From NCBI GenBank assembly GCA_903951425.1, contig CAJBBX010000015.1:1-41831 (forward strand): a stretch of DNA of 41,831 nt, written 5' to 3'. The stretch comes from an uncultured Chthonomonas sp. (GTDB lineage: Bacteria; Armatimonadota; Chthonomonadetes; Chthonomonadales; CAJBBX01). The notes under the pieces were generated by a model, which saw only the letters and a list, made by a program, of their open reading frames with translations, did not search any database and was not told the DNA's origin. This document shows, in pieces, positions 37-10,139 of the stretch. The first letter of the stretch is position 1. Each line of letters starts with the position of its first letter. Made by a program: the position numbers and the translations under genes.

Positions 37-149
37 GGGGGGTCCTTCGGCCCGTCGGCGGCCTCAGGATGACGGCAAAGGCAAAGGCCGTCCCGCCGCC
101 GCGCCGCCCTTGCCGTCGCCCTGACGCGAAGCGGAAGGACCCCCCGGCG
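37..149. repeat. Inverted pair of GAAGGACC dispersed-repeat arms
   Basis: The left arm (37-73) read on the minus strand begins GTCATCCTGA and ends GAAGGACCCCCC. The right arm (115-149) read on the plus strand begins GTCGCCCTGA and ends GAAGGACCCCCC. They face away from each other, the opposite polarity to the inverted pair at 4825-4948, and share the same core words, so I place them in one repeat family. Length and boundaries are judged by eye. Confidence 0.55.
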
Positions 150-210
150 TGAGCCACCGCACCCTCATACCCCGGCGCGAAGCGGAAGGACCCCCCGGCG
201 TGAGCCACCG
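126..210 (+). repeat. 34-bp perfect direct repeat, two copies
   Basis: The 34 bases at 126-159 recur without change at 177-210, a period of 51 bp. The unit contains the GAAGGACCCCCC word of the dispersed-repeat family and runs on into GGCGTGAGCCACCG. Only two copies exist and the gap is 17 bp, so this is a local duplication and not an array. Confidence 0.7.
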
Positions 211-300: not shown

Positions 301-2226
301 ATGACCGAGCCTCGGGGGACGGCGGGGGGCATGGGAAGGGCGATCCTGCTCGCCTTGCCGCTGGCGGCCGTGGGATCCGCCATGGCCTCCTACTCGGACC
401 TCTACCCCTTCAAGAAGCTCGGGGCCTATCAGCTCGCGCCCGGCGCCATCGCGCTCTATGCGCTGGTCCTGGCCGCCAACGCCCTGGTGCGGCGGCTGTG
501 GCCCCGGCGCGCTCTATGCCGGGCCGAGCTACTGCTCGTCTTCGCCATGGTCTCCATCGGCGTACTCATCGGCGGGGCGGGCGGCGACAGCGCCTTCATG
601 CCGTCGCTGGCATATCCCTTCTACTTCGCCAACGAGAGCAACCGGCTGGCCGCGCTGGTCCATCCGCACACGCCGGGCTGGCTGGCGCCGCCGGGGCTCC
701 GCGAGAGCGCCCGCTGGTTCTTCGAGGGGCTTCGGCCCGGCATGGCGGTGCCGTGGGCCGCCTGGCTCAGCCCGGTGGCGGCGTGGAGCCTCCTGCTGGC
801 CGCCATGTACGGGGCCAGCGTGGCCGTCTCCCTGCTGGTCTACGACCGCTGGGCTCGGCAGGAGCGGCTCCGCTTCCCGCTCATGGAGATACCGCTGGCC
901 CTCACCGGCGGACAGCCGCGCGACGCCGCCATCCGCCTGAAGGCCGGGTTCCTGCTGGCCGCGGGCTTCGGCCTGCTGCAGGGGCTACCCTACTCGTTCC
1001 CCACGTTCCCGATCATCGCGTCGCGCTGGGTGCTGCCCGCGCCCCTGGCGGCGCCCTGGAGCGCCTGGGGCGACACCATCGTGAACCTCTCGCCGGCGGT
1101 GGTGGGGCTCAGCTACATCATCAGCTCCGACGTCTGCTTCTCGCTGGTGGGCTTCCACATGCTCTTCCGGCTGATGAACGTGGCCGCCCTGAGCGCGGGC
1201 CTGCCCATGGAGATGGAGCAGGACTACTGGGCCTGGAAGGAGTACCAGGCGCTCATCTGCTTCGGCGGCTATGTCGGCTTCGCCGCCACGGCGCTCTGGC
1301 CCATGCTCTCATCGTGGCTGGGCGGCAAGCGCACCCGCGAGGCGACGCTGAGCCCCATCGAGGCCCGCACTGTGCGGTCCGACCGCCGGGCGGGGCTGCT
1401 GCTGGCGTTCTCGCTGGGCTGCGTCTTCCTCTGGATGCGGGCGCTGGGGATGTCGGCCGTGGCTGCGGGCGCCGCCATCGCCATCTACCTCGTCTTCGCC
1501 GTGGTGCTGACCCGAGTGGTCTGCGAGATCGGCCTCTTCCTCATCCAGCCGCCCATCCTGCCGTCGGATGTGCTGGGCGGGTTCGGCATCGCGCGGCACG
1601 GAGCCGACGCGGCGCTCATCAGCTTCGTCATGCCCAGCGTGCTATTCGAGCTGCGGGGCTCCATCCTTCCGGCCATGCTGCAGGGCATGAAGCTGGCCGA
1701 CGAGGGCCGCGCTCCCACTCGGCGCGCGCTGGGGGCCATGCTGGCGGCGGTCCCGCTGGCCCTGGCGGCCGCCTACGTCGTACACCTGCTGGTCTTCTAC
1801 CGGTACGGAGCGCTGCAGTGCCTGGATGTCTGGTCGGCCAAGGCGCAGGCCGGAGTGGGGTTCGATAAACTGGCGCGGCGGGCCGGGTCTGTGGCCGGCG
1901 TCCAGTGGTCCCGCGTGGGCTGGATGGCCGGCGGGCTCTCGCTGCTGGTGGGCATGCAGCAGCTTCGCCGCGCCGTGCTATGGTTCCCGGTGAACCCCGT
2001 GGGCATGGTCATGGCCGTGAGCTACCCCTCGGTGACGCTCTGGGCCTCCATGACCGTGGGCGGCCTGCTGAAGGTGCTCATGCTCCGCTATGGCGGCAAG
2101 CGGTGGCACGATGCGGGCAAGGACGTGGCCATCGGCGTGGTGCTGGGCCACGTGGCCTTCACGCTCTTCTGGTACGCATTCGACTATCTGACGGGCACGT
2201 CGGCCCGGCCCCTGGGGCTGGAGTAG
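301..2226 (+). CDS. Multi-pass membrane protein, DUF6785/DUF6784-like
   Basis: A 641-residue integral membrane protein made almost entirely of hydrophobic helices (roughly 12-14 segments), starting with one at about residues 11-30. Short loops carry runs of aromatic and charged residues. The overall make-up and the phrase EMEQDYWAWKEYQALICFGGYVGF resemble the large uncharacterised DUF6785/DUF6784 family, which has a loose likeness to oligopeptide-transporter folds; the name is from memory of the family and not from a search. The ATG at 301 has GGAG seven bases upstream. The next gene, a secreted GH-like protein, starts 23 bases after the stop, so co-transcription is likely and a role in uptake or handling of a sugar polymer is possible. 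Substrate is unknown. Confidence 0.7.
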   Translation: MTEPRGTAGGMGRAILLALPLAAVGSAMASYSDLYPFKKLGAYQLAPGAIALYALVLAANALVRRLWPRRALCRAELLLVFAMVSIGVLIGGAGGDSAFMPSLAYPFYFANESNRLAALVHPHTPGWLAPPGLRESARWFFEGLRPGMAVPWAAWLSPVAAWSLLLAAMYGASVAVSLLVYDRWARQERLRFPLMEIPLALTGGQPRDAAIRLKAGFLLAAGFGLLQGLPYSFPTFPIIASRWVLPAPLAAPWSAWGDTIVNLSPAVVGLSYIISSDVCFSLVGFHMLFRLMNVAALSAGLPMEMEQDYWAWKEYQALICFGGYVGFAATALWPMLSSWLGGKRTREATLSPIEARTVRSDRRAGLLLAFSLGCVFLWMRALGMSAVAAGAAIAIYLVFAVVLTRVVCEIGLFLIQPPILPSDVLGGFGIARHGADAALISFVMPSVLFELRGSILPAMLQGMKLADEGRAPTRRALGAMLAAVPLALAAAYVVHLLVFYRYGALQCLDVWSAKAQAGVGFDKLARRAGSVAGVQWSRVGWMAGGLSLLVGMQQLRRAVLWFPVNPVGMVMAVSYPSVTLWASMTVGGLLKVLMLRYGGKRWHDAGKDVAIGVVLGHVAFTLFWYAFDYLTGTSARPLGLE

Positions 2227-2249
2227 GCGTCCCGATGGGAGATCATCCG

Positions 2250-4769
2250 ATGATGAAGCCGCTCCTCCTCGCCGCAACGCTGCTGGCGGCCCTCGTGGCC
2301 CCGGCGACGCTTGCCGCGCAGGGCTCGCGCACCGTGAAGGAGACGTTCGAAGCCTACGCAGACGGCACGGGCCTCGGCCGCAACTGGTCGTCCGTCGGGC
2401 CGGGCCTGACGCTGTCCGACGCCGCCAACCACACGCCGGGCGGGCGCAAGTCGGTACTGCTGCCCGCCGAGAAGGGCGCCAGGTCGCTGCGCCGCAACCT
2501 GACCGAGAACCCCACGCACGGCTCGCTCTCGGTCTGGTGCATGGATAACGGCGACCCCACCGAGGCCTGGTCGGTGACCTGCGGCGACGGCGTCAGCGGC
2601 AACACGGTGATCGTCTACACCGTACCCTGGAGCCCCAGCGGCGGCAAGCAGCTGAACTGGATGTACCAGGTCGACCGGGTGAACACCGAGGGCAAGCCCA
2701 GCGGCATCGGCCGCACTGAGGGCTGGGTGCAGATCACCTTCAACTGGGGCAAGGAGGGCTGCTCCGTGAGCCTGAACGGCGCGCAGGTCTGGAGCGCCGC
2801 CGAGCTGACCGAGGGCTTCAGCTTCATCGAGGTTGGACGTTTCTGGGGCGCGGACCAGCCCTATGAGGCCCACGCGACGATCGCCTTCGACGATATCGCC
2901 GCCACCATGGACCAGGCGCCCGCCGAGGGCGACGCCGACGCCCTGGTGGGCAAGGTCCAGCGCCCCGCGTACGCCTACGCCGCCATGCAGGCCGGTCCCC
3001 TGCGCCGGCGAGACCTCGAGGGCAAGCCCTTCTGGGCGATGAACTACTTCGGCGGCGATGCGGCCGGCGCCCGAAGCTCGACCACGGTCCTGGCGGCGGC
3101 CCGCGAGTACAAGCTGGGCGACTCCTGGTACTCCTGGGCCAACTTCGATGACGCCGACATGGGCTTCCTGCGGCGCTATGCATCGGATGCCGGCCCGCTG
3201 CTGGTCACAACCGACCCCGACGCCATGCAGCGCCTCACCTTCAAGCTGACCCCGGAGCGCGAGCGGAACGTGAAGGAGCTGGACGCCCTGCGTCCCGGCC
3301 GCCTGGTGGCCGCCCTGCATGGCGAGTGGGACAACGCGCTGGACTTCTACTTCGGCGGCCTACCCAAGGGCACGTCCACCCGCAAGCAGGCCTACGAAGC
3401 CTGGGAGAAGCACTACAAGACCGTCCGCGACAATCTGAGTGGGCGGCTCATCAGCGTCAACGGCTACGGGTTCTACCAGCACTACGGAGCGCGCTGGGGC
3501 AGCGACCGGCTCATCGGCGTGGAGGTCTGCGAGAACATCCCCGGGAGCCAGCCGCACTACTCCTTCACGCGCGGGGCGGGGCGGCAGTACGGCCTCGCCT
3601 GGTACGCCCAGATGTCGCCCTGGTACGCGGGCACCATCCTCTCGTATGACCGCTACTCGCCCTGGACGCCCGGCCCCGGCAGCGGCACCTGGGGGCCCGA
3701 CCACGGCCATTCGGTGAACCTGCTGGAGCGCCACTGGTACGCGGCCTGGCTGGGCGGCGCGGCGGTGGTCTGCGCCGAGGCCAACGGCTGGAACGCCTTC
3801 AACGACGACCGCGTCGAGGGCCTGCCCAAGCTCTCCAAGCTGGGCGAGGCGTGGCGCAAGTTCGTCGCCTTCACCTCGGCGCACCCCAAGCGGGGCGTGC
3901 CGGTGACGCCCTTCGCGGCCGTGATGGACCAGTACAACGGCTTCAACGGCGGCGACCAGCCCTGGCGAACCTTCAAGCGCACCCAGGGCGACGAGATGGC
4001 CACGGACCTCTTCCAGCAGTTCTACCCCGGCGCCTTCGACCGGGGCCTCATGGCGCGCGACCAGGGCTACCTGACCCACACGCCCTACGGCGACACGCTG
4101 GACGCGCTGCTGAGCGATGCCTCGGCCGACGCGCTGGCCTCCTACCCGGTGATCTTCTGCGTCGGCGACTTCGAGCCCGACGCGGCCTTCGCGCAGCGGC
4201 TGCTGCAGGCGGCGCAGCGAGGCTCCACCGTGGTGGTCCACCGCGCGCACGCCACGGGGCCGCTGGGGGGCCTCCTGCAGTCCGACGCGGCGTCCGAGCC
4301 GGTCCTGTCCGAGGGCATCGCGGCGGTGAAGGCGGGCAAGGGGTGGGTGATCCTCATCGACCGCCCGGCGCTCCGCGTCCCCCGAGCGCTGACCCGTGCG
4401 CTGGCGCAGGCCGTCCTGCCGGTATCGGTGGAGGGCCGCGTGCAGATGACCCTAGCGCGCACCGAGGCCGGGTGGGTCATCGGCCTCATCAACAACGAGG
4501 GCGTCCACAAGCCCTCGCCCACGTCAGCGCCGGTGATCGATCCCGCCGCCGCCGTGAAGGCGCGCGTCTTCCTGCCAGCGGCATGGCGCGGCCCCGTGAC
4601 CGACTGGCAGACCGGCGCCAGGGCAGCCACGCAGTCCGCTGGCGCGCAGGGAAGGCTGCTGGAGGTTGCACTGGGTCCCGGCGAGGTGAAGGTGGTCTCG
4701 GTCGACCTGGCCGGCCCGAGCCCCAAGGCGCCCGCCAAACGCCCGGCCGGCAAGCGGCGAGGCCGGTAG
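2250..4769 (+). CDS. Secreted glycoside-hydrolase-like protein with N-terminal jelly-roll
   Basis: This 839-residue protein starts at the ATG at 2250, about 8 bases after GGGAG, and opens with a clear signal peptide (MMKPLLLAATLLAALVAP, cleavage near TLAAQ). Residues about 30-220 look like a beta-sandwich of the laminin-G/concanavalin type (FDDIAAT at its end). The central part looks like a TIM-barrel glycosidase module with aromatic and acidic motifs (GEWDNALDFYF, VNGYGFYQHYGARW, DHGHSVNLLERHWYAAW). The end resembles the Rossmann-like and beta-sandwich tail found in GH42-like enzymes (SYPVIFCVGDFEPDAAFAQ, IIGLINNEGV-type strand). The central and C-terminal parts are clearly paralogous to the product at 8385-10139. 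An exact GH family cannot be assigned; the catalytic acids are not identified. Several ATGs upstream in frame lie within the preceding gene and are rejected. Confidence 0.72.
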   Translation: MMKPLLLAATLLAALVAPATLAAQGSRTVKETFEAYADGTGLGRNWSSVGPGLTLSDAANHTPGGRKSVLLPAEKGARSLRRNLTENPTHGSLSVWCMDNGDPTEAWSVTCGDGVSGNTVIVYTVPWSPSGGKQLNWMYQVDRVNTEGKPSGIGRTEGWVQITFNWGKEGCSVSLNGAQVWSAAELTEGFSFIEVGRFWGADQPYEAHATIAFDDIAATMDQAPAEGDADALVGKVQRPAYAYAAMQAGPLRRRDLEGKPFWAMNYFGGDAAGARSSTTVLAAAREYKLGDSWYSWANFDDADMGFLRRYASDAGPLLVTTDPDAMQRLTFKLTPERERNVKELDALRPGRLVAALHGEWDNALDFYFGGLPKGTSTRKQAYEAWEKHYKTVRDNLSGRLISVNGYGFYQHYGARWGSDRLIGVEVCENIPGSQPHYSFTRGAGRQYGLAWYAQMSPWYAGTILSYDRYSPWTPGPGSGTWGPDHGHSVNLLERHWYAAWLGGAAVVCAEANGWNAFNDDRVEGLPKLSKLGEAWRKFVAFTSAHPKRGVPVTPFAAVMDQYNGFNGGDQPWRTFKRTQGDEMATDLFQQFYPGAFDRGLMARDQGYLTHTPYGDTLDALLSDASADALASYPVIFCVGDFEPDAAFAQRLLQAAQRGSTVVVHRAHATGPLGGLLQSDAASEPVLSEGIAAVKAGKGWVILIDRPALRVPRALTRALAQAVLPVSVEGRVQMTLARTEAGWVIGLINNEGVHKPSPTSAPVIDPAAAVKARVFLPAAWRGPVTDWQTGARAATQSAGAQGRLLEVALGPGEVKVVSVDLAGPSPKAPAKRPAGKRRGR

Positions 4770-4803: not shown

Positions 4804-4824
4804 AGTCGCCCTTGCCCCTGCCGG

Positions 4825-4948
4825 GTCGTCCTGAACGGAGTGAAGGACCCCGACTCCGGCGCAATGGTGGCTTGCCCGGGACGCTGGGCCCGCCGGAGTA
4901 CGAAGGTGCGGTGCAGGAGTCGGGGCCCTTCGTTTCACTCAGGGCGAC
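4825..4948 (+). repeat. Long inverted repeat, copy 1 of dispersed element
   Basis: The 33-base arm at 4825-4857 (starts GTCGTCCTGA, ends CCCCGACTCC) is matched by the reverse complement of 4916-4948 at 26 of 33 positions, and every one of the seven differences is a transition. Positions 4825-4910 align without gaps to 5331-5416 with about 10 differences in 86. The 3' arm ends 12 bases beyond the stop codon of the GIY-YIG gene. The structure resembles paired REP-like units. Confidence 0.75.
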
Positions 4949-4960
4949 GTCAAGGGCGGC

Positions 4961-5251
4961 TCACAGGTCGTCTGCCAGGTCGCCAAGCAGCTCATTGCTC
5001 TCGCGGATCAGCGCGAGCTTGCGTTCGCGTGTCCATCCCTTCAGTTGCTTCTCGCGCGCAATAGCGTCCTGTGGCGTCGCATGGGCTTCCCAGAGGACCA
5101 ACCGCGTTGCGTTGAACCGAGCGGTGAACCCGTCGCCGGACCGCTGCTTGTGCTCGGCAACGCGACGCGCCAGATCACCCGTCATACCAACGTACAGCAC
5201 TGTAGCGCGCGGGTTGGTCATGATGTATGTGTACCAGCAGCGCTGCCTCAC
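4961..5251 (-). CDS. Small GIY-YIG nuclease-domain protein
   Basis: This 96-residue protein is a stand-alone GIY-YIG domain of the UPF0213-like type. The YTYIM start strand (GIY equivalent), the YVGMT strand (YIG equivalent), the arginine in LARRVAEH, and the lysine-rich KQLKGWTRERKLALI helix are all present. The GTG start at 5251 is chosen because GAGGAG lies just upstream and because the domain begins at once; a longer frame to 5572 only translates repeat DNA. The gene lies between two copies of a dispersed repeat (4825-4948 and 5331-5416), which invites the idea that nuclease and repeat travel together. The family is known as GIY-YIG endonucleases, but the function of these short versions is not established. 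A conserved glutamate for metal binding (WEAH) is visible. Confidence 0.85.
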   Translation of the reverse strand: MRQRCWYTYIMTNPRATVLYVGMTGDLARRVAEHKQRSGDGFTARFNATRLVLWEAHATPQDAIAREKQLKGWTRERKLALIRESNELLGDLADDL

Positions 5252-5330
5252 ACCGTCCTCCTCAGGCAACAATGGTACCGGTCTGGCGAGGCGGCGCACG
5301 ACCCGACCGGTACCGGGCGCACCCTCGCCG

Positions 5331-5416
5331 GTCGTCCTGAACGAAGTGAAGGACCCCGACTCCAGCGCTACGGTGGCTTGCCTGGGCCGTTGGGCGCGCC
5401 GGGGTACGCAGGTGCG
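5331..5416 (+). repeat. Dispersed element, copy 2 (half unit)
   Basis: These 86 bases match 4825-4910 at about 76 positions without gaps, in the same orientation. The matching 3' arm present in copy 1 is missing or strongly decayed here; the sequence after 5416 turns into the upstream region of the WD40 gene. The two copies bracket the GIY-YIG gene. Confidence 0.75.
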
Positions 5417-5514
5417 CGGCGGGTCCGAGCCAACGCTGCTACACTGCTGCAAGGGGGCTCGTTCCCCACGGCCTGTTCGCCGTCCGCATCGCCGTCCGCA
5501 CCAGGAGGTGTGAC

Positions 5515-8283: not shown

Positions 8284-8306
8284 GGGCTGTGCCTGTGCCC
8301 GCACCA

Positions 8307-8341
8307 GGGCTCTCCGAGCGCGTACCGTGTCAGGAGAGCCC
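8307..8341 (+). terminator. Hairpin after the WD40 gene
   Basis: GGGCTCTCC (8307-8315) pairs perfectly with GGAGAGCCC (8333-8341) across a 17-base loop, shortly after the WD40 stop codon. No T-run follows. A TATACT hexamer at 8361-8366 lies between this hairpin and the next gene. Confidence 0.45.
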
Positions 8342-8384
8342 CGCGGCGCCGGTCCGACCGTATACTACGGGTGGAGGTGAGCCA

Positions 8385-10139
8385 GTGACACTTCGGAACT
8401 TGGCCGCGCTTGCGGGCGTGGCCCTGGCGTCGGCCTGCGCCGCGTCCGGTAGCCTGACCTCTCGGCCCCAGCCGACCTCCTACGCCGCGCTGGCCGCCGG
8501 GCCTGGGCGGGTGCGGGCGCTGCAGGGGCGGACCTTCCGCTTCACCCTGGGCGACGGCGACAGCGCGCCGAACCGCCTGCCGACCATCACGAAGCTCCAG
8601 ATGGCCGACCCGAGCCCCGTCTCCTATGCCATCGGCGAGTGGGGCTACTCCTTCCACCAGCTCAAGAACGGCCAGCTCGACGGCGCCGGGCAGCCCCACT
8701 ACGGCGGCTACCCCACGCCCCCGCGCACCCGCGCCGAGGCTATGGAGGTGGTGCGCCGCTACTACCTGCGCCTGCGCGAGATCGCCATGGCGAAGGCCAC
8801 ACCCGAGCAGCGCCGCTGCTTCATCGCCATCAACGGCCACTACTGCTACCTGCACTACGCCTGCGAGTGGGGATGCGACGTGGTGGGCAGCGAGGTGGGC
8901 GAGAACATCAACAGCATCCAGGCGCACATCGCCTTCACCCGCGGCGCGGCGCGGCAGTACGGCAAGCCGTGGCTCATCGACTTCTCGCCCTGGTATGGGC
9001 CCTCCATCTTCGACGAAGACCCGCGCATGACCTGGGGCGAGAACTCCGGCCCCACGCACGGGCACTCCATGAGCCTCATCCTCCGCACTTTCTACGCCGC
9101 CTACATGGCAGGAGCCAACATCGTCGTGGCCGAGGGCGGGGCCATTAACGCCTTCCGCAGCCAGACGCCCGGTCCCGACGGCCTGCTGCCGCTCTCCACG
9201 CTGGGCGTCGAGGCGGCGCGCTTTAACCGCTTCGCCCGCCGCCACCCCGACCGCGGCATCTCCTACGCGCCCGTGGCCCTGGTGCTGCCCGTCGATCACG
9301 GGATATTCCCCGGCTTCCTGCCCAAGACCACGTGGAACGCCTTCCCGTACCAGCCGGGCGACCAGTTTGTCCTCGACGCCCTAAACGCCTTCTTCCCCGG
9401 CAGCCTGGGCGACCCCGACCAGCCCGAGCGACCCGACCGCCAGCCGGGCGACCCGACCTGGAAGGACCCGAACTACATGCGCACGGAGGCCCTGCGGCTG
9501 GTGGCCTCGCCGCATGGCGACATCGTGGACGTGCTGCTGGCCAACGCGCCCGAGGCCGTCCTGCGCTCCTACCCGGTGGCGGTGCTGGCCGGCGAGTTCG
9601 TCCCGGACGCGGCGCTGGCGCGCAAGCTCGCAGGCTACGTGCGGCAGGGCGGCACGCTGGTCGTCGATCCCGTGGCCCGGCGGTCGGGCCTGCTCGCATC
9701 GGTGGCGGCTATCCGCGAGCCCGCCGCAGGCAAGCCCTACAGCCGATTGGCCCTGGGCAAGGGCGCGGTGATCTCCCTGGCCGCCTCGCGGCCTGACGAG
9801 CCCACCGCACAGCGGCCACTCTCCCGCGTGCTGGCGCAAATGCGGCGCGAGCTAGTGCCGGTCGAGGTGACGGGCCGGGTGGAGACGCTCCTTAGCCGCA
9901 CGCGCGACGGCTGGATCGTCACCATCATCAACAACGAGGGCGTCCGCAAGGAGTTCCGCAAGCCGGCCGAAGTCAACCCCGCCGCGGCCCAGACCGTGGC
10001 GCTGCGCTGGACCGGCCAGGGCCGGGTGTCGGCCGCGACCCTCTGGGGCCACGAGCGCGACATGCCGCTGGCCGTGGGCCGCCTGCGCGTCGCCGTGCCG
10101 CCGGGCGAGGTGCGGATCGTCCGCCTGACGGTGCGGTAG
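8385..10139 (+). CDS. Secreted GH-like protein, paralogue of 2250-4769
   Basis: A 584-residue exported protein. The GTG at 8385 is chosen because GGAGGTGA (8373-8380) precedes it and a signal sequence starts right there (TLRNLAALAGVALASAC); the cysteine could be a lipid-attachment site, though alanine at the lipobox -3 place is not ideal. It lacks the N-terminal jelly-roll of its paralogue, but shares the core: VGSEVGENINS versus IGVEVCENIPG, FTRGAARQYG versus FTRGAGRQYG, THGHSMSLILRTFYAAY versus DHGHSVNLLERHWYAAW, then VLAGEFVPDAALARKL and a last sandwich with IVTIINNEGVRKEF. The family looks like a TIM-barrel glycosidase with a GH42-like tail; the substrate and catalytic acids are unknown. 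TATACT at 8361-8366 may be its own -10 element. Confidence 0.72.
   Translation: MTLRNLAALAGVALASACAASGSLTSRPQPTSYAALAAGPGRVRALQGRTFRFTLGDGDSAPNRLPTITKLQMADPSPVSYAIGEWGYSFHQLKNGQLDGAGQPHYGGYPTPPRTRAEAMEVVRRYYLRLREIAMAKATPEQRRCFIAINGHYCYLHYACEWGCDVVGSEVGENINSIQAHIAFTRGAARQYGKPWLIDFSPWYGPSIFDEDPRMTWGENSGPTHGHSMSLILRTFYAAYMAGANIVVAEGGAINAFRSQTPGPDGLLPLSTLGVEAARFNRFARRHPDRGISYAPVALVLPVDHGIFPGFLPKTTWNAFPYQPGDQFVLDALNAFFPGSLGDPDQPERPDRQPGDPTWKDPNYMRTEALRLVASPHGDIVDVLLANAPEAVLRSYPVAVLAGEFVPDAALARKLAGYVRQGGTLVVDPVARRSGLLASVAAIREPAAGKPYSRLALGKGAVISLAASRPDEPTAQRPLSRVLAQMRRELVPVEVTGRVETLLSRTRDGWIVTIINNEGVRKEFRKPAEVNPAAAQTVALRWTGQGRVSAATLWGHERDMPLAVGRLRVAVPPGEVRIVRLTVR

Follow-up and report, generated by a model that had tools for sequence, protein, structure and literature searches.

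The 41,831-nucleotide stretch of DNA analysed here, from an uncultured Chthonomonas sp. (contig CAJBBX010000015.1; hereafter the window), most probably carries a REPtron-like cassette, in which a small GIY-YIG nuclease gene is flanked by a hairpin repeat that its product recognises and of which more copies are dispersed in the genome. Co-location of gene and repeat, a hairpin fold with covariation, the pairing of hairpins in inverted orientation, and a near-perfect match of residues 77 and 73 of the nuclease with the class of the adjacent hairpin are all apparent at the level of sequence.

The original prediction had placed two ungapped 86-bp copies of the repeat, about 88% identical, at 4825–4910 and 5331–5416. 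These coordinates are right, with 76 of 86 positions identical, and in a repeat search of the window the pair is longer, 102 nt with 84% identity (4816–4917 and 5322–5423). Likewise, the claim of a 33-base stem in copy 1 whose seven mismatches are all transitions was borne out by comparing the arms in register: 4825–4860 and 4913–4948 are 78% complementary and differ by transitions at positions 5, 11, 12, 14, 16, 17 and 23, and the one transversion, at position 34, lies beyond those 33 bases. The all-transition pattern arises because six of the seven changes form three compensatory base-pair swaps (5/23, TA to CG; 11/17, AT to GC; 12/16, CG to TA), and the seventh, at position 14, is the free N of a GNA loop. 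What had been missed is that copy 2 is only a half unit, and that the true core of the unit is a 27-nt hairpin consisting of an unpaired GTC, a 5-bp stem, GA opposite GA (tandem G·A), 2 bp, a GNA triloop and CCC (Table 1). Outer ends GCCCTTG and CAAGGGC lengthen copy 1 to about 4808–4957, and the complete unit of copy 1, folded as single-stranded DNA, has a z value of -3.6. Rfam gave no match within the window. The source genome (G000, 6.08 Mb) contains at least 37 G·A hairpins, three of which lie no more than about 120 bp from the nuclease gene; with 37 copies, such a cluster beside one gene has a probability of about 5e-10, rising to 8e-8 if 200 copies are assumed, and chance placement is therefore excluded.

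Table 1. Features of the nuclease locus and related repeat copies in the window
Feature	Position	Strand	Remarks
Element copy 1, complete	4825..4948	+	two GTC-tagged hairpins, inverted, around a spacer
Hairpin 1	4825..4851	+	GTC GTCCT GA AC GGA GT GA AGGAC CCC
Hairpin 2	4922..4948	-	GTC GCCCT GA GT GAA AC GA AGGGC CCC; fold of hairpin 1 kept with compensatory changes
GIY-YIG nuclease gene	4961..5251	-	96 aa, Ssn-like subfamily, R77/W73; Pfam PF01541, E = 3.7e-15
Ribosome binding site	5257..5263	-	GAGGAGG, ends 5 nt upstream of the GTG start of the nuclease gene
Element copy 2, half unit	5331..5416	+	single hairpin and spacer; complete unit here in a sister species
Hairpin 3	5331..5357	+	GTC GTCCT GA AC GAA GT GA AGGAC CCC
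Additional half-unit fragment	103..177	-	more diverged, 77% DNA match

Conservation of the fold is evident from two data sets. Across 35 distinct hairpins, double-sided changes occur at all seven stem pairs (76 such cells, versus 22.6 in shuffled data); these hairpins had been picked for near-complete pairing, and their paired fraction is partly by construction. A search that demanded only the skeleton GTC, GA, GNA, GA, with no requirement for pairing, returned 71 sites no further than 600 bp from a nuclease gene, at which a mean of 5.4 of the 7 pairs is formed, compared to about 1.75 expected for random letters. As a G·A mismatch on one strand is C·T on the other, the hairpin motif is strand-asymmetric. 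Folding energies did not separate the two hairpin strands, and G·A pairs may go unrewarded in the energy model. The combination of G·A pairs and a GNA loop is reminiscent of GCGAAGC-type DNA mini-hairpins, which are extraordinarily stable. Extraordinarily stable mini-hairpins as a class have been described previously (PMC10527192). A terminator reading of the hairpins was dropped; the T run is absent.

The 96-residue GIY-YIG gene predicted on the other strand, with a ribosome binding site of its own, is intact. A near-identical gene of a sister species has an ATG start at the codon where the window has GTG. The catalytic residues Y9, Y20, R30, H34 and E67 are all present; Y9, Y20, H34 and E67, together with K71 and R75, are invariant across 32 relatives, and R30 occurs in at least 90% of them. 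NCBIfam and PHROGs provided no confident family for the nuclease. AlphaFold2 yielded a confident, compact model (pLDDT 89.8), the closest solved folds being 1zg2 (UPF0213), followed by Slx1 and UvrC-N. The small UPF0213/YhbQ-like GIY-YIG proteins (1zg2, 1ywl), which as the best solved-structure matches have the same fold and size, share only about 25% identity with the window nuclease. Residues 73–77 fall in the model between the helix of the catalytic Glu67 (60–72) and the next helix (75–85), which makes them a plausible DNA-reading position. A group I intron homing endonuclease was also considered and dropped, there being no intron and no interrupted reading frame. Three members of a more distant YhbQ-like subfamily (L042 in G007, L043 in G006 and L045 in G010) have another repeat, CTGAGCTTGTCGAAG, in their flanks, which looks like a parallel pairing of nuclease and repeat. 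Elsewhere in the window, the large proteins encoded at 1905–4769 and 8289–10139 are related to each other; at the DNA level, short stretches of the second match the first at about 70–75%.

One scan of bacterial and archaeal genomes produced 80 relatives of the nuclease, which span many phyla and include one from Neisseria gonorrhoeae; viral contigs and plasmids completed the broad sample. When the motif GTC-RYNNN...N'N'N'RY was counted around these 80 genes, using no prior knowledge of the relatives' repeats, the density of GTC-tagged hairpins was 1.91 per kb within 600 bp of the nuclease versus 0.19 per kb beyond 2 kb (10-fold); eight control three-letter prefixes gave near/far density ratios of 0.6–1.7. 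With a stricter classifier, a hairpin was found within 600 bp at 51 of the 80 nuclease loci, on both sides at 31, representing at least 18 named phyla, and no classed hairpin lies within 600 bp at 29 of the 80. Classed hairpins occur at 1.63 per kb at nuclease genes but at 0.025 per kb (about 65-fold less) at 25 UvrC loci, nearly all of which were taken from hairpin-rich genomes. Excess co-location had been named as a check in the original prediction; it is strong and, with these controls, recurs across phyla. On a plasmid of Planktothrix agardhii (L341), a nuclease of the family with three G·A hairpins is located between an MmeI-type restriction gene and the DISARM gene drmA.

The source genome encodes one nuclease of this kind, the sole other PF01541 gene having the length of UvrC. 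In G001, a sister species, the nuclease gene occupies the same place, but one flank holds three units where the window has one, and the other holds a complete unit in place of the half. G001 and G002 lack a unit fragment that G000 has at C118, which makes G000:C118 a presence/absence site, and at site C171 a half unit in G000 is fuller in G001. These differences in copy number and presence between sister species point to local turnover of the units. Joining flanks revealed no clean empty site with a target duplication; G000:C118 and C171 carry deletions, and no duplication was readable. Spread of the element by the nuclease is hence a conjecture: copy number and presence change between sister species, but neither a clean empty site nor a target duplication accompanies the change. 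Some units in G000 and G001 (L210, L226) lie next to a further dispersed repeat, AAGTGAGTCCCTTGAACCCTT.

The gonococcal protein of our sample (L121) is presumably Ssn. Neisseria Ssn (Chenal et al. 2025) is reportedly a site-specific GIY-YIG nuclease for single-stranded DNA that cuts NTS repeats and has many homologues with targets of their own, and Ssn and NTS are said to act in transformation, in the control of ssDNA uptake or recombination. Like Ssn, the window nuclease is a small single-domain protein (about 90–100 aa) with intact catalytic residues, 45% identical to L121, and its hairpin repeat, likewise a trait of the Ssn type, is found both beside the gene and scattered through the genome. 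A host function, whereby the nuclease acts on the hairpins to control ssDNA uptake or recombination at marked sites and not to spread them, is a serious if somewhat doubtful possibility. The homologous gene of N. gonorrhoeae has at least 11 GTC-tagged hairpins in its flanks, mostly of the GTCATTCCC type, and dispersed copies together with a single enzyme gene would fit such a role, but the turnover between sister species and the patchy presence of the nuclease look more selfish or semi-selfish. This explanation and the cassette proposed here share the recognition step and differ only in purpose. The original prediction had moreover presented a GIY-YIG enzyme at a REP-like element as a solution different from the Y1 transposases; a GIY-YIG and not a Y1 enzyme does indeed lie by these REP-like hairpins, but Ssn and NTS of Neisseria would be a precedent.

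Hairpins by the nuclease genes fall into three classes, namely a fully paired class, with loops mostly of 4 or 5 nt and including the Neisseria GTCATTCCCGC type, the tandem-G·A class of the window, and an asymmetric G·A/GAA class. On the nuclease tree (n = 60), the distinction of paired versus G·A class requires 3 changes, compared to 19.4 with shuffled labels, and residue 77 ranks first by far among the alignment columns by mutual information with hairpin class. All 60 discovery loci conform: Trp77 is present in 25 of 25 beside paired hairpins, and Lys or Arg77 in 35 of 35 beside G·A hairpins. All 10 discovery loci of the asymmetric class have Gly73, and none of the other discovery loci does. 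At held-out loci, which had not been used in finding the rule, residue 77 agreed with the hairpin in 48 of 48 cases (phylum search, 16/16; viral contigs, 22/22; plasmids and other replicons, 10/10), many of the viral Trp loci being close relatives; one viral-contig locus has His77 beside a G·A hairpin. The gonococcal gene, with Trp77, has fully paired hairpins (GTCATTCCCGC...GCGGGAATC), whereas the window gene has Arg77 and tandem-G·A hairpins. Since two positions of the nuclease predict the shape of the adjacent hairpin, the enzyme very probably recognises the hairpin beside its gene.

Shared ancestry could also underlie the match, if clades had inherited both nuclease and hairpin class and residue 77 had no role in recognition, because only two independent class switches are well supported (3–5 on the best tree; sign test p 0.5). 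We consider this unlikely. The match holds across all 108 classed loci, and the second match, of Gly73 with GAA, involves 5 changes on the nuclease tree. In the clearest switch, L067 (Arg77, Gly73, G·A hairpin) has L091 (Trp77, paired hairpin) as its sister, with support of 100/88.

A covariance model of the G·A hairpin and a profile of the nuclease were both run on 201 genomes from the phylum of the window. The hairpin was detected in 27 of the 38 genomes with the nuclease subfamily versus 28 of the 163 without it (odds ratio 12, Fisher p 3e-10, phylogeny not corrected), and more distant YhbQ-like relatives showed no association with the hairpin in these 201 genomes. Of the 11 nuclease-positive, hairpin-negative genomes, at least two (G012, G153) have the paired hairpin class, to which the model, covering the G·A hairpin only, is blind. 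Three genomes with orphan hairpins (G071, G103, G124) are 97–100% complete and contain at least 17 hairpins each, with a UvrC-type gene as sole GIY-YIG gene; most simply, these genomes would have lost the nuclease while the repeats persisted. The units of G124 are grouped near a CRISPR-like array and genes of phage-like character (L191, 3262–15221), and a search of the 18.5-kb cluster for a second partner gene of its orphan hairpins revealed only these genes and the array. The original prediction had regarded a repeat widespread in genomes lacking the nuclease as evidence against the idea. Such genomes do exist, near-complete ones included, so that this objection applies in part, the association being otherwise strong. 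They also lend something to the view of the hairpins as ordinary repeats between genes, such as RNA elements, transcription elements or terminators, with the nuclease gene nearby by chance or through a common neighbourhood, as does the observation that REPs are mostly intergenic and that many may act as RNA (PMC3733652). That view is nevertheless very unlikely to be correct, given that the enrichment is specific to the nuclease gene, in comparison to UvrC in hairpin-rich genomes, and that the match of residue and class would be unexplained without interaction.

CGTC-tagged REPs, of which families CGTC-1 to CGTC-4 have been defined with dRS3 of Neisseria as CGTC-1, were described in 2013 without a dedicated enzyme and with tag variants allowed (Di Nocera et al. 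2013, PMC3733652). The window repeat shares with them an unpaired GTC tag at one end, a short hairpin, intergenic location and high copy number. The tag preceding each window hairpin is GGTC or CGTC, consistent with the CGTC tag and its variants; complete units are inverted pairs, corresponding to the head-to-head dimers that predominate among CGTC REPs; and the Y1_Tnp locus of the source genome is free of units, in agreement with the lack of transposase association in CGTC REPs. However, CGTC-REP stems are fully paired over 8–9 bp, with a loop of 4–5 nt and a CCA tail (PMC3733652), whereas the window hairpin has 5 bp, GA/GA and 2 bp, a 3-nt GNA loop and a CCC tail; the G·A hairpin class is outside the four CGTC families. 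The REP/REPIN systems with RAYT (TnpA-REP, Y1 HUH) resemble the window locus in that the enzyme gene is flanked by its own hairpins (a REPtron), in their inverted pairs, and in the imperfect hairpin with a short unpaired 5' tag, but the tag here is GTC and not GTAG, and the flanked gene codes for a GIY-YIG hydrolase and not a Y1 transposase. Least probable of all, although the source genome does have one Y1_Tnp gene and repeats enclose the nuclease gene in the style of a compound element, is that a RAYT/Y1 or other transposase moves the repeats with the nuclease as cargo of a two-repeat composite: GTC hairpins of the window kind do not adjoin the genome's sole Y1 (RAYT-like) transposase gene (L132, G000:C39:39145–39381), CGTC repeats are not found beside RAYT or other transposase genes except fortuitously (Di Nocera et al., PMC3733652), and a cargo gene would not track hairpin class at individual residues.

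The partnership at the heart of the original prediction, a GIY-YIG enzyme serving a REP-like element, is thus upheld by the co-location, the odds ratio, the tracking of hairpin class with nuclease clade and two residues, and the hairpin-free Y1 locus. In the REPtron-like cassette that we favour, the nuclease would bind the hairpin of the GTC-tagged strand in single-stranded DNA, as arises on the lagging strand or in transformation or conjugation, where G·A pairs can form; the predicted target is ssDNA carrying GTCGTCCTGAACGAAGTGAAGGACCCC. Residues around 71–78, where the catalytic helix meets the one that follows, would read the stem, Trp77 being suited to paired stems and Lys or Arg77 to tandem G·A. 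To judge from what is known of the family, the enzyme would then cut at or beside the hairpin as an Ssn-type ssDNA endonuclease. In the least certain step, repair or recombination after the cut would spread, duplicate or remove units, and the repeats would persist as a nuclease-dependent population. The cut may serve the spread of the units, in the manner of a selfish REP-like element, or it may serve the host in the control of uptake and recombination, and the two roles may coexist.

CGTC REPs and the uncatalogued G·A class are now linked to one GIY-YIG family in at least 18 phyla. It is quite conceivable, though we put it forward tentatively, that all bacterial GTC-hairpin repeats form one superfamily served by a single GIY-YIG family with a recognition code (Trp or Lys/Arg at position 77, Gly or another residue at 73, specifying paired, tandem-G·A or asymmetric-G·A hairpins), and that the nuclease also drives their spread and persistence. 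CGTC REPs, described as having no dedicated enzyme, would then have one. The two-residue rule is testable by a single amino-acid swap and a few oligonucleotides; if it holds, the hairpin specificity of small ssDNA nucleases would become predictable from sequence, and the persistence of very common bacterial repeats would become a testable question.
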